A program made the position numbers and the translations under genes. The notes under the pieces are model-generated. The model did no database searches, was not told the origin of the DNA, and was given only the letters and a program-made list of their open reading frames with translations. Source: a virus. From it: a stretch of DNA of 64,000 nt. Shown piece after piece: positions 31,199-60,280 of the stretch (the stretch's first letter is position 1; each line of letters opens with the position of its first letter). Where the stretch lies: IMG/VR virus record IMGVR_UViG_3300027844_001828, positions 1-64,000 of that record. One strand, given 5' to 3'.

Positions 31199-32752
31199 AT
31201 GATAATAATATACGATAAAAAAAGCAGGGTGATCGTTGAGAGCCTTACCACAAACTCAGAGGGCGAGCTACCCTCTTCAGACTCTTTGTCTAAGATGTAT
31301 CCAAAAAGTTATAAGAGACTTCTTTGCTGTAACATGGAAATCCCGACAAATATAAGTGTTGTTGGAGCGACGATTGAAATAAAATCTGAGATTCCTTTCA
31401 AGATTTTCAAAGACGATTCGATAGTGTTTGAGTTGACTATAAAAGAGTTCGATCAGAAGCTCAAAAACAAGCGAGAAGAAAGAAGAAACAGCATGCTTGT
31501 AAACTTTCCGTGCGTATTCTCCAAGAAAGGAGTGAGCGGATTCACAGATCAACTTTCACGCTTGCCACAAACCTTTGATGAAATTGGGTTGTCGATGCGA
31601 GATGGTAGTTATTTTGAAAAGGGGTTGATGAAGGTTGGTTGGTGGGGAACATTCATGGATGCTGGCGGCTATGCCAACATGAATCGCGAGATAACAAGAA
31701 GGCTACACAACTATAGGATAATCCCCTATGTTAGAACTTACGCGACCGCCTGTCAGATTGACCCACCTGCTGCTGACTTATTCAGGCAATACGAAGATAT
31801 GAAACCTAAAAAGGGCGATCACCCATTTGTATATGCTTACACTCCGATGGCTCACACTTACCATGGCGGTAAGCGTGTCTTTTTTACAATGATGGAGACC
31901 TCATCTTTACACTCTGTGTTTGTAGACCATTGCAATAGGTTTAGTGATGAAGTCTGGGTCCCGTCTGAGGCTAACAAGGAGTTATTCAAATCAGAGGGTG
32001 TAAAAAAGAGAATCAGAGTTGCCCCACTTGGCATTGATGAAATCATATACTTTAAACAAAGTGTTCCGGTTAAGAAAATAAATTCCTACAAGAGTTTGTT
32101 TGGACCAAAGGTGGAAGATGGCGTGAGGGATTTTAAGTTCCTAACACTGATTCAGTGGAACTTTAGGAAAGGCTATGACGCCTTGATAAAAGCCTTCGTT
32201 AATAAGTACACGGCAAAGGATGATGTCTGCTTAGTCTTTGCCACACAATATTCATTTGACACGGTGTACAACGACTTGAAAAGACATTTACCAAGGAATA
32301 GTGATCTTCCACAGGTTGTCCTGTATAATGACATAATCCCGACAGTAGACATGCCGGGGTTCTACAAAAATTTTGATTGTTATATTCATATGTCAAGAGG
32401 TGAAGGTTTTAGCTTGACTCAAATTGAAGCAGCCGCATGTGGGTTGCCAGTAATATCTAATTGTCATTCTGGGATGACTGAGTATCTCACAAAAGAAAAC
32501 AGTTTCATGATCGACTGCAAAGAGGTTGAGAAGTGTTGCCCAGAGCTTGGTAGCGTTTGCTATTTTTACCAAGGTCAGTACTTGTGGAAAGTTGGAAAAA
32601 AACAAATTAACCAGGCTTCAGAATATATGGATTACGTTGTTAATAATTACGGTAATGCGAAGAAGAAAGCGGAAGTGTTCCATGATGACGTAATAAAAAA
32701 TTATACCTGGGAATTAACCGCAGAACGGATAGCATCATTGCTCAAGAGTTAA
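31199..32752 (+). CDS. Glycosyltransferase, GT4-like (GT-B fold)
   Basis: A 517-residue protein. Residues 395-430 carry the EX7E signature of retaining GT-B transferases (E402 and E410 in 'GEGFSLTQIEAAACGLPV'), followed by 'SNCHSGMTEYL', a typical nucleotide-sugar binding end. 'VAPLGIDEIIY' and 'LIQWNFRKGYDALIKAF' are also usual for the family. The first 100 residues are an extra unrecognised domain with a basic helix ('KLKNKREERRNS'). It would transfer a sugar from an activated donor, perhaps to a virion protein or a host glycan. It lies directly before a second transferase gene (2-base gap), so the two probably act together. Donor and acceptor cannot be told. Confidence 0.8.
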   Translation: MIIIYDKKSRVIVESLTTNSEGELPSSDSLSKMYPKSYKRLLCCNMEIPTNISVVGATIEIKSEIPFKIFKDDSIVFELTIKEFDQKLKNKREERRNSMLVNFPCVFSKKGVSGFTDQLSRLPQTFDEIGLSMRDGSYFEKGLMKVGWWGTFMDAGGYANMNREITRRLHNYRIIPYVRTYATACQIDPPAADLFRQYEDMKPKKGDHPFVYAYTPMAHTYHGGKRVFFTMMETSSLHSVFVDHCNRFSDEVWVPSEANKELFKSEGVKKRIRVAPLGIDEIIYFKQSVPVKKINSYKSLFGPKVEDGVRDFKFLTLIQWNFRKGYDALIKAFVNKYTAKDDVCLVFATQYSFDTVYNDLKRHLPRNSDLPQVVLYNDIIPTVDMPGFYKNFDCYIHMSRGEGFSLTQIEAAACGLPVISNCHSGMTEYLTKENSFMIDCKEVEKCCPELGSVCYFYQGQYLWKVGKKQINQASEYMDYVVNNYGNAKKKAEVFHDDVIKNYTWELTAERIASLLKS

Positions 32753-32754
32753 TT

Positions 32755-33396
32755 ATGATTGGACTTGGTTTAATAACTTTGAATGAAGAAGAGTATGTCG
32801 AAAGATGTATCAAGAGCGCCGAGGGGCTCTATGATGAATTAATAGTTCTTGACCACTTCTCTTCAGATAGGACGGCTGAAATATGCGCCGATCTTGGGGC
32901 GCAAGTCGTTCAGGCCAAATGGATTCACGATTTTTCACTCGCCAGGAACCAACTAAATAATTTATTTACCTCTCCATGGATATTTCAGATGGACGCTGAT
33001 GAACATCTTGAGGGGGAAAAGTTAAATTTATTGTCACATGCAGTTGAAATATCAGAAAACCAGGGTATAGTAGCATGGTCCTTGTTAAGGAAGAACCATT
33101 ATCCTGATCATGATGCAGGATCTCCGTTTTTTGCGGCTCCGTTTTACCCGGACCCGCAAGTGAGACTGTTCAAAAACCAACCTGAGATATATTGGAGTGG
33201 AGCAGTTCACGAAGGAGTTTCTCAGGCGATTACAGAAGGGAATATTGGAACAATAGGACGCCTTTCTGTTTGTCTTCACCATCACATGTTCCGAGGAAAC
33301 CAAGAAAAATACGAAGACTTAAAAGGACAATATTACAGTAACATTCAACAAGGAGTTTTCCATGAAGATGGCCACCCGACTAATAAAGTCAACTGA
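32755..33396 (+). CDS. Glycosyltransferase family 2-like protein
   Basis: A 213-residue GT-A transferase, short but with the expected parts. The start 'GLGLITLNEEEYVERCIKSA' is the usual N-terminal strand and helix. 'DELIVLDHFSSDRT' follows, and the metal-binding DxD is D80-A-D82. 'FFAAPFYPDPQVRLFKN' and 'GAVHEG' match the acceptor-side motif of the 'beta-glycosyltransferase, LgtF-like' group. It is likely to add a sugar to a surface glycan or glycoprotein along with the GT4-like neighbour. The next gene starts inside its last codons (35-bp overlap), so the two are probably translationally coupled. Confidence 0.75.
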   Translation: MIGLGLITLNEEEYVERCIKSAEGLYDELIVLDHFSSDRTAEICADLGAQVVQAKWIHDFSLARNQLNNLFTSPWIFQMDADEHLEGEKLNLLSHAVEISENQGIVAWSLLRKNHYPDHDAGSPFFAAPFYPDPQVRLFKNQPEIYWSGAVHEGVSQAITEGNIGTIGRLSVCLHHHMFRGNQEKYEDLKGQYYSNIQQGVFHEDGHPTNKVN

Positions 33397-35644
33397 ATTA
33401 GAATTTCTCAATGCCTACAAGCATGAATTGTACTCAAAGGGCTCTGACATTTCAAAGTCCTGGAAGGTAGGCGAGAACCTCGTTTTTGTCGTTGGAGACG
33501 AAATCGCTGGTTTTGCTAACGTTCTTGGAAGGTCTTATCATAGCGATGAGGAATTGTGGCCCGGAGTGACGAAGCCGTTCAGGTTGCCTATAGATTTTAT
33601 AAGGGTTTTCCCCGTTGGTGATAGACCGACATTCTCAGGGTCGGTCCACAAAAATATGCTTATAGAAATATATGGTAAGAATAATTGGGGCCATGTTTTT
33701 GTAAACAAGCACTCTCTCCCAGACCATGTCAGCAAGAGCCTTCTCACCGAGTTGAAAGGGCTCAGAAACATGAGCGAAAAAGTAGACTTCTCATTGGACA
33801 TCTCAATCTCCAATGAGATAAAATCTATCACTGAGAAAATTCAGAGAAAGGCCAAACAAAGTATGAACCAAGACAAAGTTGACTATGAAGAGAAAAGGGA
33901 GACGCTTGTTTTCCGAATGCTTGAATTTGTAAGAAACGATCCAGAAAGGTTGGAGAAGCTTAAACATAAATCTTTCCTTAAGTCACTCGACGAGTCGGAA
34001 AACAATTACTTCAGAGAAGTCAAATACGCTGACGTAAAACATGATGTTAAAGAATTAATGTCAATTCAGGGATTATTCAGACCCAAGTGGAAAGAGTATG
34101 GCCCAGGAACATACGTAGTTGTTGGCGACTCTCATGGTGATCATGCGGAAGCTGGGGTGTTCTCTCTTGTCCAATCATTAAGCGAATACATCGGTGCCGA
34201 TAATGTATTCCATATTGGACATATATTGGATGATAATGAAATAATCAACGAAGACTTGGTGAGAATAAAAGACCTTGTTGTTATTTCAAGGGTGGAAGAG
34301 TCGCCACAGATTGAAGAGTTTTATGAAGACAACTCAACCGGTGACACCGAGCCATTTGAAATTATTCAAGAGGGCGTTTTACTTGGTAATGTAAAGGTCG
34401 CTAATCACGATCTTTCAAACGACTATATGAGTACGAGAGCGGATAGCAAAACAGTAAATAGGAAGGTATTTGAAGAGTCTTCTATTTTGAGCGGGCACAG
34501 ACATGAAATATCCAATACTGCCACAAATGATGATCAGAGAGTCGTCTCTGGATTTCCAGGATGCTTGTGTGAAAATCACGTTTCATCAAATTCGAGAAAG
34601 CCAAGATACAGACAAGACATTCTCGAAAAGTTCTTGAAAAAGAACCCGTGGCATTTGAAAGCCAATAGAAGAAGGATTACGATCAAGGAAGAGTGGGAAC
34701 AGGGCGTTTTTGTTGTCAATGTAAGCGCGGACTATTCACATACGATTGTTCCATGCCGAATCAAAAAAGTAATGATTGAAGGAAGAGAAAGATTTGCCAC
34801 GAGTTACTTCGACAAGATCATTTCTGAAAACGCAGTTCATGAGCCAGACAAAAAGATTTTCGTCAATGGTGATGTTCACGCTCCGCTTCAAGACTCGCAG
34901 GTTCTCCACATTCAGGACCAAGTAGTGAAGGACTACCAACCAGATATTTATGTCAACATCGGAGACATAAGAAGCAGCGAGGGGTTGAATCATCATATCC
35001 TTGATCGTGGAGAGATTCCTAATGAGACCCTCATTGAAGAATCCACTTGCGTCTATCATCTTCTTAAAATGATGTCTGAATGGGCACCTGAAAAGCATGT
35101 CTTGTTTGGAAATCATGAAAGATTCGCTTGTGACTTTATAAAGAAGAACCCTCAATTCGAAGGGCTCATTGATTTCAACTTTATGTGTGGAGTAGAAAGA
35201 CTTGGGTATAATCTTGTTCCGCATCAAGGAACTCTTGAGATTGATGACGTTGTATTCGTCCATGGAGATATCTTGAGAGGTGGAGCGGCAGCGATGGATA
35301 AGTACGCTTCTGCGTTCCCCGACAAGACGGTCGTTTTGGGCCACAGTCACTATCCTGCAATAAGGTCTGAAGTGTACATGATGGGTCTCACCGGATTGAG
35401 AGATCAGGGATACAATGAGAAATCAATAACGAGATGGTGCCATGGATTAGGTTTTGTAAATACCTTCAATGGGGTATCCTGGGCCACATCCATAGCTATT
35501 GAAAGACATTCGATAAGCATAAATGGGAAAAAATATTCCTCAGACGACGATGGTTTTTGGAGGACTTATCGGTATAAAACAGAATTAGTTTATATACCAG
35601 AAGACCCCGAAAGCGAGTTAGATGATGAATTGGCACTTGAATGA
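33362..35644 (+). CDS. Tandem calcineurin-like metallophosphoesterase
   Basis: A 760-residue protein with two phosphoesterase-like domains. The second (from about 500) is complete: D504-V-H in 'NGDVHAP', 'NIGDIRSS', 'FGNHERF', 'VHGDIL' and 'LGHSHYP', the five blocks that bind two metals. The first (from about 250) keeps D256-S-H ('VVGDSHGDH') and 'SGHRHEI' but has 'HIGHIL' where GD is expected, and I cannot find GNHE, so it is probably inactive. The start at 33362 has AAGGAG with a 6-base spacer. It could hydrolyse a phosphodiester or a nucleotide, and substrate choice is open. The C-terminus is acidic and overlaps the next gene by 23 bp. Confidence 0.75.
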   Translation: MKMATRLIKSTELEFLNAYKHELYSKGSDISKSWKVGENLVFVVGDEIAGFANVLGRSYHSDEELWPGVTKPFRLPIDFIRVFPVGDRPTFSGSVHKNMLIEIYGKNNWGHVFVNKHSLPDHVSKSLLTELKGLRNMSEKVDFSLDISISNEIKSITEKIQRKAKQSMNQDKVDYEEKRETLVFRMLEFVRNDPERLEKLKHKSFLKSLDESENNYFREVKYADVKHDVKELMSIQGLFRPKWKEYGPGTYVVVGDSHGDHAEAGVFSLVQSLSEYIGADNVFHIGHILDDNEIINEDLVRIKDLVVISRVEESPQIEEFYEDNSTGDTEPFEIIQEGVLLGNVKVANHDLSNDYMSTRADSKTVNRKVFEESSILSGHRHEISNTATNDDQRVVSGFPGCLCENHVSSNSRKPRYRQDILEKFLKKNPWHLKANRRRITIKEEWEQGVFVVNVSADYSHTIVPCRIKKVMIEGRERFATSYFDKIISENAVHEPDKKIFVNGDVHAPLQDSQVLHIQDQVVKDYQPDIYVNIGDIRSSEGLNHHILDRGEIPNETLIEESTCVYHLLKMMSEWAPEKHVLFGNHERFACDFIKKNPQFEGLIDFNFMCGVERLGYNLVPHQGTLEIDDVVFVHGDILRGGAAAMDKYASAFPDKTVVLGHSHYPAIRSEVYMMGLTGLRDQGYNEKSITRWCHGLGFVNTFNGVSWATSIAIERHSISINGKKYSSDDDGFWRTYRYKTELVYIPEDPESELDDELALE

Positions 35645-51705: not shown

Positions 51706-52782
51706 GTGAAGAAAATTCTATTTATTGACGGTATGAATTTGGCCTGGAAGGCTATCCATGCTTATAATCTCTCGACCTCAAGCGGACAAGATACGTCCGC
51801 TATTTTTGGTTTTATAAACCAGCTTATATCAGTAATAAACGGTAGAAAAGACTTGTTGATTGTTGTAGCGTGGGACGGTGGTTATGAAGAGAGGACCAGG
51901 CTCTCAAACGCGGGTATTGAAAAGGGCATTATCAATGCTGCGTATAAGTCTAATCGAAAATCAGACGATAAGACTCAAGACACCAAGATCAACTTAGACC
52001 CTCAGCTTAAAGAGATCCAACGCGCACTTAGCCACACTGACATAAAACAAATATTTGTAGCTGGCGAAGAGGCCGATGATGTTATCGCTTCATGCGCCAA
52101 AAAGATCGGTGGCAAGGCGGAGATACTCTGCTTAACCTGCGACCATGATTATTATCAATTATTGAGTGACAATTTTTCAATTTTGGATAGGATGCATGGC
52201 ACAGAGAATTTAATCACGAACAAAACATTCACCGAAGACAAGGGTATAGAGCCTTGTCAGTGGGTTGATTCTGGAGCGTTAAGCGGAGACACGAGTGATT
52301 GCATTATGGGGGTTCCCGGATGTGGAGAACCAACTGCTATAAAGCTCATCAAAGCACATGGAGATGTTGAGAGTGTCATTAGTCATTTTGAATCTGAATT
52401 GTCTATAGAAAGGGGTAAGTATCCAGATTTACAAACTCAGGATGAAGTAAATGAGTTGATCTCTCTTGGTGGGACTAAGAAAGTAAAGGGAAATAGTCAA
52501 AAGCCAAATTATGAGGGTATTTATGTTGGGATGCCCTTCAGCGGAGTTTGCTTGGCGAACTTGAGGGGTGACTTGAAAAAGGTAAAGAAGATTGATATAA
52601 AGGTCGTCATGTACCAAGAGAGAATCCGTCTTGCAAAGCAGTTGAAAAAGATGAGGTCAGATATAGACGTTCCAAACATAACGTTTGAATCGTCTTTTAA
52701 TGAAAGAGAGTTTTGCAGAATTTGTGGGGAATATGAGTTGTATTCTATAACCATGAAAGCTGAGGTTTTTAAGTTCTTATGA
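51706..52782 (+). CDS. 5'-3' exonuclease / flap endonuclease-like, GTG start
   Basis: 358 residues with the FEN/PIN nuclease pattern: D8 in 'LFIDGMNLAW', D57, 'GEEADD' at 120-125, 'CDHD' at 145-148, and 'GDTSD' at 194-198 followed by the helix-hairpin-helix 'GVPGCGEPTAIKLI'. These acidic residues bind two metal ions in T4 RNase H and the polymerase I exonuclease domain. The likely job is to remove RNA primers and flaps. The GTG at 51706 has GGAG 7 bases before it and lies 25 bases after the P2 -10 box. The extra C-terminal part holds 'FCRICGEYE', with one CxxC. Confidence 0.85.
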   Translation: MKKILFIDGMNLAWKAIHAYNLSTSSGQDTSAIFGFINQLISVINGRKDLLIVVAWDGGYEERTRLSNAGIEKGIINAAYKSNRKSDDKTQDTKINLDPQLKEIQRALSHTDIKQIFVAGEEADDVIASCAKKIGGKAEILCLTCDHDYYQLLSDNFSILDRMHGTENLITNKTFTEDKGIEPCQWVDSGALSGDTSDCIMGVPGCGEPTAIKLIKAHGDVESVISHFESELSIERGKYPDLQTQDEVNELISLGGTKKVKGNSQKPNYEGIYVGMPFSGVCLANLRGDLKKVKKIDIKVVMYQERIRLAKQLKKMRSDIDVPNITFESSFNEREFCRICGEYELYSITMKAEVFKFL

Positions 52783-53042
52783 AACGAAGATACGATATGA
52801 GAAGGTCTGATAACTTTCCTCATTGTTCGACAGTAGAGAAATTTCTTGAGGGGGAATCCGGTAAGGTTTTTATCCATACCGGATTTCCCGTAAAGAGCGC
52901 AATAGTGGTTCCCACATCTATACCAGAAGGGTCTGAATTGTTTGCTGACCCGGAGTTCGATGAAGAGGAAGGTTTCAATGTAATCTTTAACAAAATGCCA
53001 GGTGATCAGAACTTGGTAAAATTCAGCTATCAGGCAACATAA
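52779..53042 (+). CDS. Hypothetical protein, 87 aa
   Basis: Starts at an ATGA overlapping the exonuclease stop. A basic start followed by a beta-type segment and an acidic stretch ('FADPEFDEEEGF'). No family recognised. Its place between the exonuclease and topoisomerase genes (a 2-base gap follows it) makes a replication-linked role likely but unproven. Confidence 0.5.
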   Translation: MKRRYDMRRSDNFPHCSTVEKFLEGESGKVFIHTGFPVKSAIVVPTSIPEGSELFADPEFDEEEGFNVIFNKMPGDQNLVKFSYQAT

Positions 53043-55503: not shown

Positions 55504-55517
55504 TTGTTGTCAGCAGC

Positions 55518-55545
55518 TTGCAATTTATTCGTATCACGGTATAAT
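55518..55545 (+). promoter_or_regulatory. Promoter P3 (TTGCAA-N16-TATAAT)
   Basis: TTGCAA at 55518-55523, spacer of 16, consensus TATAAT at 55540-55545. GCTTGCAA is shared with P1 and P2. The leader CGGAGAACAC (55585-55594) is identical to that of P2. It drives the clamp loader, sigma and clamp group. The leader from about 55552 to ATG 55596 has no strong hairpin. Confidence 0.8.
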
Positions 55546-55595
55546 ATACAATCGGGAAGCTATGTCGATGTTAATTATTATAATCGGAGAACACG

Positions 55596-56690
55596 ATGCC
55601 AGAGATCTTTTATCAAAAATACAGGCCTAAATACATTGGTCACCTAATAGGTCAAGAAATCGTTTCCAAAATACTCACGAGAGCCTGTGAGAAAGAGTTT
55701 TTCCACCATTCGTACTTGTTATCTGGAAAACACGGCACCGGAAAGACCACAGTAGCCCGAATTATCGCATCTATGCTTGTTTGTGAGTCAAGGAAGACCG
55801 GAAGTGATGTCACATGTGGAAAATGCCCCGGCTGCAATGCGGTACATAAGAATGCGTCTCCAGACGTTCAGGAAATCGATGCGGCGTCGAATAGCAGCGT
55901 TGACAATATTAGATCCGTGATCGAAAGTAGCCGCCACTCTCCACAGGACTTGAAAAAGAGAGTGTTCATTATTGATGAATGTCATAGGCTCAGTCCAGCC
56001 GCTATGTCAGCTTTGTTGAAAACATTGGAAGAACCATCTTCCTCTTCGGTGTTCATATTGTGTACAACAGAGTTCGATAAGGTTTTGTCAACTATTAAAG
56101 GCCGGTGTCAAAAGTTGTTTTTCAATCCGGTACCACCCAAGAAAATGATTCCGTATTTAGGTGGTTTGTTTAAGTCAAGGGATGTTAAGATTGACACACC
56201 AGCGTTATTCAGTATCGCATCAGCCAGTGGCGGAAGTGTCCGAGAAGCGCTTGAGATTTCCCAAGAAGTTATTGTGTTAGCGGATGGCGAAGTGACTGAA
56301 GCAATGATTGCTGAGAATTACGGGATAGCAAACCGCCAGGATCTTTACACCTTAGTTGGTGCCACATTGTCGGACGACTTAATAAAAACTTTTGACACCT
56401 TAGAGCGACTTTTCGCATCAAATATTGATGTACGAAAGGTTTGCAGAGAAATTGGAGATATTTTTAGGAGTATAATGTTATCGAAAGTTGATTCAAAATA
56501 TATTAATGGATTGGTTGACTCAGAAAAAGAGTTCATTAGTAAGACGGGGTCAACAGTAAACATTTCGGATTTAGCGTCATTCTTGCCCTTTTTCGAAGAG
56601 GCGGAAAGATGTTTCGAAGTAAACGTAAACAACAAATGGGTATTAGAAGCCATAATTGTTAAGATAACTCAAAAGATAAACGGAAAATAA
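55596..56690 (+). CDS. dnaX-like: DNA polymerase III gamma-like clamp-loader ATPase
   Basis: 364 residues. Starts 'FYQKYRPKYIGHLIGQE', the DnaX opening. Walker A G44KHGTGKT51, zinc module C63, C74, C77, C80, and DECH at 127-130. 'LLKTLEEPSSSSVFILCTTE' is typical, with 'KGRCQ' where bacterial proteins have SRC. It stops where gamma ends, so it has no tau extension for binding helicase and polymerase. It would load the clamp encoded at 57460 with the delta-like subunit at 58638. No delta-prime gene is found in the window. Confidence 0.9.
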   Translation: MPEIFYQKYRPKYIGHLIGQEIVSKILTRACEKEFFHHSYLLSGKHGTGKTTVARIIASMLVCESRKTGSDVTCGKCPGCNAVHKNASPDVQEIDAASNSSVDNIRSVIESSRHSPQDLKKRVFIIDECHRLSPAAMSALLKTLEEPSSSSVFILCTTEFDKVLSTIKGRCQKLFFNPVPPKKMIPYLGGLFKSRDVKIDTPALFSIASASGGSVREALEISQEVIVLADGEVTEAMIAENYGIANRQDLYTLVGATLSDDLIKTFDTLERLFASNIDVRKVCREIGDIFRSIMLSKVDSKYINGLVDSEKEFISKTGSTVNISDLASFLPFFEEAERCFEVNVNNKWVLEAIIVKITQKINGK

Positions 56691-56709
56691 TTCAGATAGT
56701 ACGCTTCCT

Positions 56710-56732
56710 TCCCTGCTCATGCAAGGGGAATA
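56710..56732 (+). promoter_or_regulatory. Hairpin that could cover the sigma gene ribosome binding site
   Basis: TTCCC-TGC-TCAT-GCA-AG-GGGAA, a stem with a two-base bulge, whose right arm contains the AAGGGGAA that precedes GTG 56737 by about 6 bases. A folded form would hide the site and limit sigma translation. Structure predicted by eye only. Confidence 0.35.
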
Positions 56733-56736
56733 ACAA

Positions 56737-57444
56737 GTGGAAAAAGACACGAAGAAGAGACCAAAGAACAAAGCGAAAACCAAGGAACAGGTAGAAAAAT
56801 TAAATAACTATGCTCTTAGTTTGCAGATGAACATCGATAACGATGAGGCTTTTGAAGCAATCCATGCAGCATTGCATAACTTTATAATAAGCCAGGCTTT
56901 TCATAGGTTTATTATCAAGGGGCAAGAAGGTAAAGACTTGTATCAAGAATCGTTAATTGTCTTGTGGCAAAAGGCGATTCCTAAATTCAATCCAGATAAG
57001 GGAATGAGTTTTCTTGGGTTTGCTAAGATGTGTATAAATAGGCACCTGATCACAATATTGAATAGCGCCTTAAATCGAAAGAAAGACATTCCTATGAATA
57101 GGTCAGTTTCTCTCGATGAAGTATTTGGCGGTAAAGATGGAGATGAAGAGGGATGCTCCCTATATAACATGTTAGCTGATGAAGACACTGATTTTGTTAG
57201 AGATTTATGCTCGAATCAAGATCGACATGAGACGGTTAAAAAATTGAAAGCGGAGTTAAGTCCATTTGAATCTATGGTACTTTACCACTATCTTGATCAC
57301 CTATCATACAAAGAAATTGCCGAGTCTGTGTCAAACACTCTTGGCACACGATATAATGAAAAGTCAGTAGACAACGCTTTGCTTAGAATAAGGAGAAAAG
57401 CATCCGACCTGATGTCGGAAGTTCAGCTGGCCCTTTTTGAATAG
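56737..57444 (+). CDS. Sigma-70 family factor, SigH-like, with C-terminal clamp motif
   Basis: 235 residues, GTG start. Region 2 is at about 65-115: 'DLYQESLIVLWQKAIPKFNPDKGMSF' and 'FAKMCINRHLITILNSALNRKK', then 'NRSVSLDE', as in SigH of Bacillus. Region 4 at 172-221 has 'LSPFESMVLYHYLDHLSYKEIAES' and 'KSVDNALLRIRRK', again SigH style. The last residues are Q230-L-A-L-F-E, which match the beta-clamp binding motif QL[S/D]LF. It should bind host RNA polymerase, probably for late genes. Its gene is flanked by clamp-loader and clamp genes, so activation by the clamp is likely (inference). Confidence 0.85.
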   Translation: MEKDTKKRPKNKAKTKEQVEKLNNYALSLQMNIDNDEAFEAIHAALHNFIISQAFHRFIIKGQEGKDLYQESLIVLWQKAIPKFNPDKGMSFLGFAKMCINRHLITILNSALNRKKDIPMNRSVSLDEVFGGKDGDEEGCSLYNMLADEDTDFVRDLCSNQDRHETVKKLKAELSPFESMVLYHYLDHLSYKEIAESVSNTLGTRYNEKSVDNALLRIRRKASDLMSEVQLALFE

Positions 57445-57459
57445 AACAAGGAGTAGACA

Positions 57460-58635
57460 ATGCACGTTAAGACCCTCTCTGATAAGATATTGGAAACGAT
57501 TGATAAAGGCACCGTATCATTAGCCTTGCCGCCAAAAATTGAGGGGCCACTCTCGGAATTCGGGAGTGTGTCCTTTAGTGAAGATGGGATTTCCGTAAGG
57601 TCATCTGGCTCACATTCATCTTCAGAATATTCACGCGATTGGGACGATGATGAAGAATTTATTAGTGCCGGATCATGCGCGATAAATATCGCCAAGTTGA
57701 AATCTATGTTGTCTTCTACCAAGAAGGGAACTCCGGTTGAGATAAGGCTTAATGAGAAAGAAGCGAGTGGCGAAGCTATTGGGGTATTGGAATGTGAAGC
57801 TGGGAAAAGCTCTTGGAGGATGCCTTGCGTACACTCTGACATAGTTGCCGATGTGAGACCGGATAATGGGAAACTCATGCTTGAAGCAACAAAGAAAGAC
57901 CTTGTCATGGCGATCTCTTCTGTTTCCTATGCGGCGAACATAAGGGATGCATTTTTTACGAACTCAAACATTTGTTTCAGCGTAAATGGTGATAAGCTCT
58001 TAATGGGCGCGACAGATGATATTCGTTGTGCGGTCTACGAATTGAAATTGGAGAACCAATACGAAGATAGCAGATTCTTAGCTCCAGTAGTATGTGTCTC
58101 TCCAGCGTTGAAAAGTTTCAATGAGGGGCCGATGTCTATTTTTGTCGGTGACAAAAGCGTAAGGCTCGAACAGCATGGTCACCAAGTCAGATTCTCTCTT
58201 CCAGATGCCGCTGATGTAAACAGGTTTCCAAAGTACGAAGCCGCTGTGTTGGCTAATTATCCGTATTCAACCAGAGTCCTTGTCAGCGCATTTGCAGAAG
58301 CGATAAGCGCCTGTCAGAAAATGAACAAGGAAGAATTTTTACTCCGATACAAAGATGACGTTATGGATTTGTATGCTTACGACAGCAAAGATGGGATGTC
58401 ATATAAATCAGAGGTTGGGTACACTGGTGATAATATTAGTGTCTCAGTGGAGATATGCTCAATGTTTTTGATCGAGTTCATCAAGAAGGTTAGTGGAGAT
58501 GTCGTTAATATTGAGTTCAGAGAAAATGAGGGTAAGCAGAAGGTCATCAAGATCTCTGACGAGTCTGGGAGAACTTACATAATGAAATCACTTGTTGATA
58601 TGATTTGCGTACCTCCAGATTCAATTGAGGTATAA
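57460..58635 (+). CDS. dnaN-like: DNA polymerase III beta sliding clamp-like
   Basis: 391 residues, a little longer than bacterial beta. 'GDKLLMGATDDIRCAVYELKL' corresponds to the conserved TDGHRLA strand of domain 2. The end 'FLIEFIKKVSGDVVNIEFREN' followed by 'GRTYIMKSLV' corresponds to the last strands of domain 3. An unusual acidic and Ser-rich insert ('SRDWDDDEEF') lies in the first domain. A clear AAGGAG site precedes ATG 57460. It would hold the polymerase on DNA and could bind the QLALF tail of the sigma factor. The stop is 2 bases before the delta gene. Confidence 0.8.
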   Translation: MHVKTLSDKILETIDKGTVSLALPPKIEGPLSEFGSVSFSEDGISVRSSGSHSSSEYSRDWDDDEEFISAGSCAINIAKLKSMLSSTKKGTPVEIRLNEKEASGEAIGVLECEAGKSSWRMPCVHSDIVADVRPDNGKLMLEATKKDLVMAISSVSYAANIRDAFFTNSNICFSVNGDKLLMGATDDIRCAVYELKLENQYEDSRFLAPVVCVSPALKSFNEGPMSIFVGDKSVRLEQHGHQVRFSLPDAADVNRFPKYEAAVLANYPYSTRVLVSAFAEAISACQKMNKEEFLLRYKDDVMDLYAYDSKDGMSYKSEVGYTGDNISVSVEICSMFLIEFIKKVSGDVVNIEFRENEGKQKVIKISDESGRTYIMKSLVDMICVPPDSIEV

Positions 58636-58637
58636 TA

Positions 58638-59621
58638 ATGGCAGAAGTATACATTATTTGTGGCGATGACTATTTTAGAAAAATAGAGATAGATAAAGTA
58701 AAAAGCCAATACGATTTTTCTATCAAGTCGGACTATCCAGACAAGGAAGGGTTGTTCAGGGACTTGTTTTTTGAGTCGGTTTTTGACAGTGGTAGAAAGG
58801 CGGTTGTGGTCAGGGGCTTGGATATGAAGAAGTGGGCTTCAGATTTGATATTGAGATTTTCTAAATCGTCTTCAAATGATTGCTTGATCGTTAGCGAAGG
58901 AGACCCTAAAAAGGCAAAGGCCTTCGCAAAGAAGATAGATGGAGTCCAACTTGTTGAATTGAGCAAAGCTAATAAACCCAATGATGGGGTCAAGTTCTCT
59001 ATTGATAGAGCAAAAGACTTCGGGTTCACACTCAACAGAGACGGGGCCAAACTCCTTGTTGATCTTTGTGGATTAGATTATGCGATGTTATCAACCGAGA
59101 TTGACAAGTTGTCTGATATTTTTCCTGGCGAGGACATTGGAGAAAGAGAAGTGTATTTTTGCATAAATAGGTTATCTGGCAATTCCGACTTCCTCTCCCT
59201 CTACGTTTCCATTATGACAGGAGACACCTCCGAGTCCATAAGACATGCTCACAACATGAAGGATGAAATGACTCTTGACGCTGTATTGGGATCGATCATA
59301 AAAATTCTTCATGCTACAATAATAATCTCTCTTTTCGATGGCGATAAAGACAGAGCTTTTGATTTCTCAACAGCTAAGCGTGAAGAGGCTAAAACGAGCT
59401 TTTCATCTATCGGTGGAGTTAAGAAAAGTAAAGACCCGGCTCCCACAAAGTTCTTGTATAATGTATCTGATAAGGTGCAAAAAAGAATACTGTGCAAGCG
59501 AAAGGTTTTAGCTCTTTATGAAAATGCCTATAATTCATTAGTGAATAGTAGGGTCAAACAAAATGAAAACCTCGCTCTTGCACAGTTAGACAAGATAATT
59601 TGTTTAATGTGTAGGAGATAA
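58638..59621 (+). CDS. holA-like: DNA polymerase III delta subunit-like (HolA)
   Basis: 327 residues, close to the usual size. The start 'EVYIICGDDYFRKIEIDKVK' and 'VFDSGRKAVVVRGLDM', then 'DCLIVSEGDPKK', match the N-terminal domain of delta. 'DYAMLSTEIDKLS' is the helix that follows in the AAA+-like lid, and the C-terminal helical collar ends with 'LALAQLDKIICLM'. It should open the clamp ring as the wrench of the loader. With the DnaX-like protein it gives most of a bacterial-type loader encoded by the phage. Confidence 0.8.
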   Translation: MAEVYIICGDDYFRKIEIDKVKSQYDFSIKSDYPDKEGLFRDLFFESVFDSGRKAVVVRGLDMKKWASDLILRFSKSSSNDCLIVSEGDPKKAKAFAKKIDGVQLVELSKANKPNDGVKFSIDRAKDFGFTLNRDGAKLLVDLCGLDYAMLSTEIDKLSDIFPGEDIGEREVYFCINRLSGNSDFLSLYVSIMTGDTSESIRHAHNMKDEMTLDAVLGSIIKILHATIIISLFDGDKDRAFDFSTAKREEAKTSFSSIGGVKKSKDPAPTKFLYNVSDKVQKRILCKRKVLALYENAYNSLVNSRVKQNENLALAQLDKIICLMCRR

Positions 59622-59623
59622 AT

Positions 59624-60280
59624 ATGATAATAGGAATCGACCAGTCCCTAACTGGAACTGGAATAGCTTCAATTGACGATGACGGAACTCTTCTAATGAC
59701 CCAAACGGTCGAAACGAGTAAGATGAGGGGCGTAGAGCGATTGGCTCAAATCTGTCAGGTGGTAGAAGAGATGTGCGATAACGTTGGCGAGAAATACGTT
59801 GTTGCCAGAGAGGGTTACTCTTTCGGAAGCAAGGGTAGAGCAACCTTTAGCCTCGGAGAACTCGGCGGCTGTTTGGATCTCACCTTGTACCAAATTGAAA
59901 ATCCAAATCTCAAGTCCTATTACATTATCCCGCCAACGACTATCAAGAAACTTTGCCTGGGATCTGGCGCTATAAAGAAAGATAGTGCCTATTTATTGAA
60001 GATATTCACCACTCTGGGTATAGAATTCGCTAACGATAACGAAGCTGATGCTTACATGATTGCTGTTTCTTTATGGAAGTATTTAAGGTCTTCAAAGGCC
60101 AATTCTATCAAAGGTTATTACGAGACCCTCAAGGTATATGAAAAAGAGGCAATTTTGAGTTCCCTAATTTCCAAATCAGGGTCTGGCGTAACTAAGGCCT
60201 CACTTAAAAATTTAACTGAGGAAGATTACGCAACAGCAGCCAAATCTGTTTTAGATGGCTACTTATGCTTTGCGAGATAA
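59624..60280 (+). CDS. RuvC-like Holliday junction resolvase
   Basis: 218 residues. D6 in 'IIGIDQSLTGTG' and E63 in 'VAREGYSFG' are the first two metal ligands of the RuvC/RNase H fold. 'FANDNEADAYMIA' (D138 and D142) supplies the rest. 'GELGGCLDLTLY' lies between them as in RuvC. The likely job is to cut branched DNA before packaging. It starts 3 bases after the delta gene stop, with a GGAG site. A related RNase H nuclease is the alternative. Confidence 0.8.
   Translation: MIIGIDQSLTGTGIASIDDDGTLLMTQTVETSKMRGVERLAQICQVVEEMCDNVGEKYVVAREGYSFGSKGRATFSLGELGGCLDLTLYQIENPNLKSYYIIPPTTIKKLCLGSGAIKKDSAYLLKIFTTLGIEFANDNEADAYMIAVSLWKYLRSSKANSIKGYYETLKVYEKEAILSSLISKSGSGVTKASLKNLTEEDYATAAKSVLDGYLCFAR

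Follow-up and report, generated by a model that had tools for sequence, protein, structure and literature searches.

Does a phage sigma factor encoded among clamp and clamp-loader genes tie transcription to replication, as the late factors of phage T4 do? The question is raised by a 64,000-base stretch of DNA (the window; bases 1-64000 of the 235,624-bp virus record IMGVR_UViG_3300027844_001828, from a giant phage), in which dnaX-, sigma-, dnaN- and holA-like genes lie consecutively at positions 55596-59621, all on the plus strand. A sequence-only reading had proposed this order, and the open reading frames (ORFs) and the identities matched to them bear it out (Table 1). Judging from sequence comparison, we consider it fairly likely that this fused SigH-type sigma recruits the RNA polymerase (RNAP) of the host, docks by its C-terminal tip on the phage's beta clamp and so ties a gene class to replication.

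The sigma is a single 235-aa protein containing both region 2 (Pfam Sigma70_r2, 7e-7) and region 4 (r4_2, 5e-4), in that order, as indicated by domain matches and an AlphaFold2 (AF2) model. NCBIfam SigH models match it with E-values down to 1.5e-30, and the sigma-H structure of Fusobacterium nucleatum (3mzy) matches it by profile (4.5e-17), but its score of 106 bits is below the NCBI SigH equivalog cut-off of 212. By sequence, the protein is SigH-like, not SigH proper.

The same reading had the sigma ending in QLALFE and compared this ending with the bacterial clamp-binding motif QL[S/D]LF. We found that the protein terminates in VQLALFE, with QLALFE at residues 230-235. Among the 252 predicted phage proteins of at least 80 aa, QLxLF occurs once, at this C-terminus; by chance, about 0.15 occurrences are expected anywhere in the window proteins and about 0.001 in the last-8-residue tails. 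Even the looser tail [LIVM]x[LIVM]F within the last 8 residues is found in only 3 of these 252 proteins (about 1%). In the AF2 model of the sigma (mean predicted local distance difference test score, pLDDT, of 65), helices extend up to residue 226 and the tail is unstructured (pLDDT<50 at residues 229-235). QLALF fits the canonical clamp motif Q-phi-x-[LM]-[FL] and sits in this predicted disordered stretch; PDB entry 4k3p is, by its title, a crystal structure of the E. coli clamp with bound Ac-QLALF.

Conservation of the terminal motif, a check named beforehand, was evaluated in relatives. Single-protein scans of viral contigs picked up a single relative of the sigma and none of the clamp, and the rest were obtained by profile and DnaX-anchored scans; from the IMG/VR profile scans, four huge-phage contigs keep the dnaX-sigma-dnaN-delta order (G001/L001, 255 kb; G002/L023, 476 kb; G003/L102, 186 kb; G004/L103, 161 kb). 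Identity to the window proteins is 40-46% for the sigmas of these contigs and about 18-21%, where measured, for their clamps. The four sigmas end in VKIPLFDED, DGLPLFMER, VEEIPIFIY and IEDIPLFQL (tips KIPLF, GLPLF, EIPIF and DIPLF), so that all five clamp-cluster sigmas carry [LI]-[AP]-[LI]-F within 1-3 residues of the end, whereas the linker that joins the tip to the last conserved helix shows no conservation across the five sigmas. The last two hydrophobic positions are kept (LF, LF, LF, IF and LF), with an exception in a distant sixth cluster, L126. Hence, the check succeeded for [LI]x[LI]F (5/5) and failed for the exact QLALF and its Gln; similarly, the comparison with QL[S/D]LF holds for the window tip, and the part conserved among relatives is [LI]x[LI]F. 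In addition, about 88 Lys-rich residues extend the N-terminus of the L001 sigma (L001:5728-5991), an extension that the window sigma is without.

Genome-contig scans returned bacterial sigma factors only, and no sigma or clamp is annotated beside dnaX in the DnaX regions of Erwinia phage Alexandra and Nodularia phage. The INPHARED sigma matches (Listeria phage LM and human-faecal Bacteriophage sp. contigs) were rejected as apparent bacterial SigH genes in unverified contigs and served only as tip-less controls. Among such records, OR846854, OR848306, MT836873 and similar ones, filed as Listeria or faecal phages and unannotated, hold bacterial SigH and dnaX genes and are probably host DNA.

The tip is specific to the clamp-cluster sigmas. 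Seven further sigma-70 proteins are encoded elsewhere in G002, G003 and G004, and none has the tail (0/7); it is also absent from the bacterial SigH relatives examined. If the proteins were independent, the 5/5 versus 0/7 split would arise once in 792 arrangements, a figure that overstates the case since the five tip-bearing sigmas share ancestry. These further proteins, two or three per relative and some of them RpoD-like, lie outside the clamp cluster (G002:C1:73100-74127 and 133448-133648; G003:C1:60333 and 129903; G004:C1:93746 and 138787), which suggests several phage promoter classes.

The presumed docking partner is of bacterial type. The window clamp matches TIGR00663 (2.9e-10), and its best profile match is the Thermotoga maritima beta clamp (1vpk). 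Foldseek best matches of its model, which is of low confidence, are beta clamps as well; the structure matches comprise bacterial beta clamps only, with none of the trimeric gp45/PCNA type. Hence, the claim that the system uses bacterial-type parts stands, with clamp, loader and delta all matching bacterial families.

Other predicted clamp clients of these phages carry elements much like the Gln-less sigma tips. In the relatives, the DnaE C-termini are SGSLF, GGSVF, GVSIF and DLLGL (the last like the LGL end of Pol IV), and the window phage's DnaE has an internal AEDVF as a candidate clamp element. An alignment of five deltas shows ESVF, PSIF, RDIF and GDFF, the fifth delta being without a clear element. 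Since the clamp motif of the DnaE2 polymerase is xLPLF/PLPLF (PMC3919608), and since Gln strengthens clamp binding without being essential, the LF pair alone being able to bind (PMC11139829), the Gln-less sigma tips are plausible clamp ligands, though probably weaker ones on an E. coli-like clamp. As for DnaE itself, G004 encodes it in a single 1380-aa frame (G004:C1:83805-87842; L117, L121, L122) with about 390 extra residues, including LWGALIGDGT, that are probably an intein, and G001 has it split over two ORFs of 411 and 618 aa.

We found no RNAP beta or beta-prime domain in the window phage or its relatives by domain search. On this result the idea of a phage-own RNAP was rejected, and the host enzyme is the presumed partner of the sigma. 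Host-type promoters (CTTGACA/CTTGCAA-N15-18-TATAAT) number 22 in intergenic positions at G000:50001-235624 of the window phage record versus 1 at 1-50 kb, a weak sign since the latter region is gene-dense.

A mechanism can be proposed by analogy with T4, in which gp55 (sigma region 2) and gp33 (a flap binder) tie RNAP through hydrophobic tips to the loaded clamp gp45, with about 300-fold activation overall (PMC2988020). The phage sigma would recruit host RNAP to phage promoters, and its last six residues would dock, as a short linear motif, on the phage's own beta clamp, presumably loaded at primer-template junctions by the DnaX and delta encoded either side. The holoenzyme would thereby be tethered to newly copied DNA or to DNA still undergoing replication, which would favour promoter finding and opening and couple a gene class, probably the late genes, to replication. 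With region 4 on the RNAP flap, the tip would lie about 3 residues past the last helix, the same arrangement as that of gp33, whose tip is about 3 residues from its flap-bound domain (PMC7892883). A single polypeptide would thus do the job of gp55 (sigma region 2 and tip) plus gp33 (flap binder and tip). The proposal of T4-like logic built from bacterial-type parts is supported by the 5/5 tip after a non-conserved linker, its absence from the seven other sigmas and the bacterial-type clamp, loader and delta. Folding a read-through sigma-clamp fusion was also considered and dropped, as its motif would lie six residues before the clamp N-terminus and was judged too far from the pocket.

Several results weigh against clamp-coupled activation. 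The first-position residues of the five tips are Q, K, G, E and D, with Gln in the window sigma only (1/5), and the E. coli clamp is usually bound weakly by non-Gln motifs (PMC11139829). The clamp pocket residues are only partly alignable with those of E. coli, and the AF2 clamp model is poor. In the sixth, more distant cluster (L126/G005), where dnaX and sigma are adjacent and dnaN lies about 2.5 kb further on, the sigma is without a terminal tip and has only NPKVF, well before its end. The five tip-bearing sequences form one clade and are not independent events. Moreover, no late-promoter motif above shuffled controls was found upstream of the genes at 1-55 kb, a stretch poor in host-type promoters.

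The last result bears on whether the tip binds the clamp for a purpose other than activation, such as parking sigma or RNAP on phage DNA, delaying sigma until replication frees it or regulating the clamp. The sequence evidence for clamp binding fits such a role equally, and there is no late-promoter motif to reveal the regulon; however, in T4, the closest working precedent, the binding of sigma to the clamp serves activation (PMC2988020, PMC7892883), and we hold a non-activating role to be unlikely. The non-conserved Gln, the partly alignable pocket and the tip-less sixth relative would instead suit a tip conserved for some other contact, such as packing on region 4 or binding RNAP, with no clamp binding. 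To this we give only a small chance, as the tail is unstructured in the AF2 model, QLALF in exactly this form has been crystallised as a clamp ligand, and neither bacterial SigH relatives nor the same phages' other sigmas, which presumably act on the same RNAP, have the tip. That the tip targets the clamp of the host, allowing the phage to ride on or interfere with host replication, agrees with the near-perfect canonical bacterial-clamp motif in the window but is very improbable: the other four tips are non-canonical, all lie beside a phage clamp gene, and the DnaE and delta tips of these phages are likewise Gln-less. Least probable of all is that the LF ending arose by chance on an ordinary phage sigma whose gene is transcribed together with the replication genes. 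Clustering alone may reflect expression timing, and a host-type promoter precedes dnaX, yet the tip persists in 5/5 despite the divergent linker, is missing from the other sigmas (0/7) and has counterparts on only about 1% of the window phage's proteins.

Table 1. Features of the replication cluster (window positions, except where the virus record is named)
Feature	Position	Strand	Basis
Putative promoter of host (sigma-70-like) type, CTTGCAA-spacer-TATAAT, preceding the dnaX-sigma-dnaN-holA genes	55517..55547	+	Direct reading and pattern count; putative function
dnaX-like clamp-loader ATPase (gamma/tau)	55596..56690	+	phrog_5846 E=7.6e-65; Pfam DNA_pol3_delta2 4.5e-39
SigH-type sigma-70 family factor, regions 2 and 4, 235 aa, GTG start	56737..57444	+	Pfam, NCBIfam and PDB profile matches
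Tip QLALFE, sigma residues 230-235, predicted clamp-binding motif	57424..57441	+	Sequence, conservation, AF2 model
dnaN-like sliding clamp, bacterial beta type, 391 aa	57460..58635	+	phrog_947 1.9e-23; profile versus 1vpk 6.7e-16
holA-like delta	58638..59621	+	TIGR01128 4.5e-18; weak profile match to B. subtilis delta 3zh9
Residues 46-49 of delta (ESVF), a candidate clamp-binding element lacking Gln	58773..58784	+	Five-delta alignment; putative
RuvC-like resolvase, next replication-cluster gene after delta	59624..60280	+	phrog_159 4.3e-28
DnaE-type polymerase	68294-71524 of the same virus record		

Outside the cluster, glycosyltransferase and metallophosphoesterase genes adjoin the tail genes (window 31199-35644). 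A small protein starting with the nearly identical peptide RRYDMRRSDNFP is encoded at window 52779-53042 and at L001 3185-3433, and among the viral contigs scanned the pattern matched that of L001 only. The window phage record also encodes a Ser/Cys-rich long-repeat protein with CSSSSS runs (G000:103505-105175).

Among known systems, bacterial SigH and other sigma-70 factors share regions 2 and 4 with the window sigma and give its best family and structure matches; the window sigma differs from SigH in falling below the NCBI cut-offs and in its tip. Relative to known beta-clamp motifs, the window tip is of the canonical type and those of the relatives are xLPLF-type, with Gln lost in 4/5. The group 2 jumbo phages (PMC7824862) are similar in having their own sigma and no RNAP but differ in their T4/PCNA-type clamps and gp33, and the portion of that account consulted does not mention a clamp-binding sigma tail.

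The closest likeness is to T4 late transcription (gp55/gp33/gp45, loader gp44/62). In both, a sigma-type factor of the phage carries a hydrophobic tip at its C-terminus, here a predicted clamp binder, after a divergent linker, the T4 clamp-binding C-termini being conserved and hydrophobic/acidic (PMC2988020); both have a phage-encoded clamp and loader, host RNAP (presumed here), and a polymerase and sigma with similar tips. The differences are that regions 2 and 4 and the tip are in one polypeptide here and split into gp55 and gp33 in T4, that the window sigma is SigH-like with a bacterial beta-type clamp, not a gp45/PCNA-type one, and a DnaX/delta loader, and that the sigma gene lies between the loader and clamp genes. 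Since the sigma is fused, the clamp beta-type and the loader DnaX/delta, the system may work like the T4 device without being a gp55/gp33 member.

No case of RNAP being tethered to a sliding clamp to couple transcription to replication is known outside T4 and its relatives, and in the open-access literature we found no report of a sigma with a clamp-binding tail other than those of T4-type phages. On balance we favour the view that the fused phage sigma, with its clamp-binding tail on a beta clamp, represents a second, independently built clamp-activated transcription system and the fused late sigma that T4 researchers described as not found in nature; if true, clamp-coupled transcription arose at least twice. 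The candidate system is built from easily assayed beta-clamp parts, and the core pentapeptide of QLALFE is already a crystallised clamp ligand. A review of T4 stated that nobody had found a fused late sigma and that clamp-activated transcription was not known elsewhere in nature, a restriction it considered puzzling (PMC2988020). Hence, this clade is a natural candidate answer to both of its questions, the restriction to T4 relatives and the missing fused late sigma.
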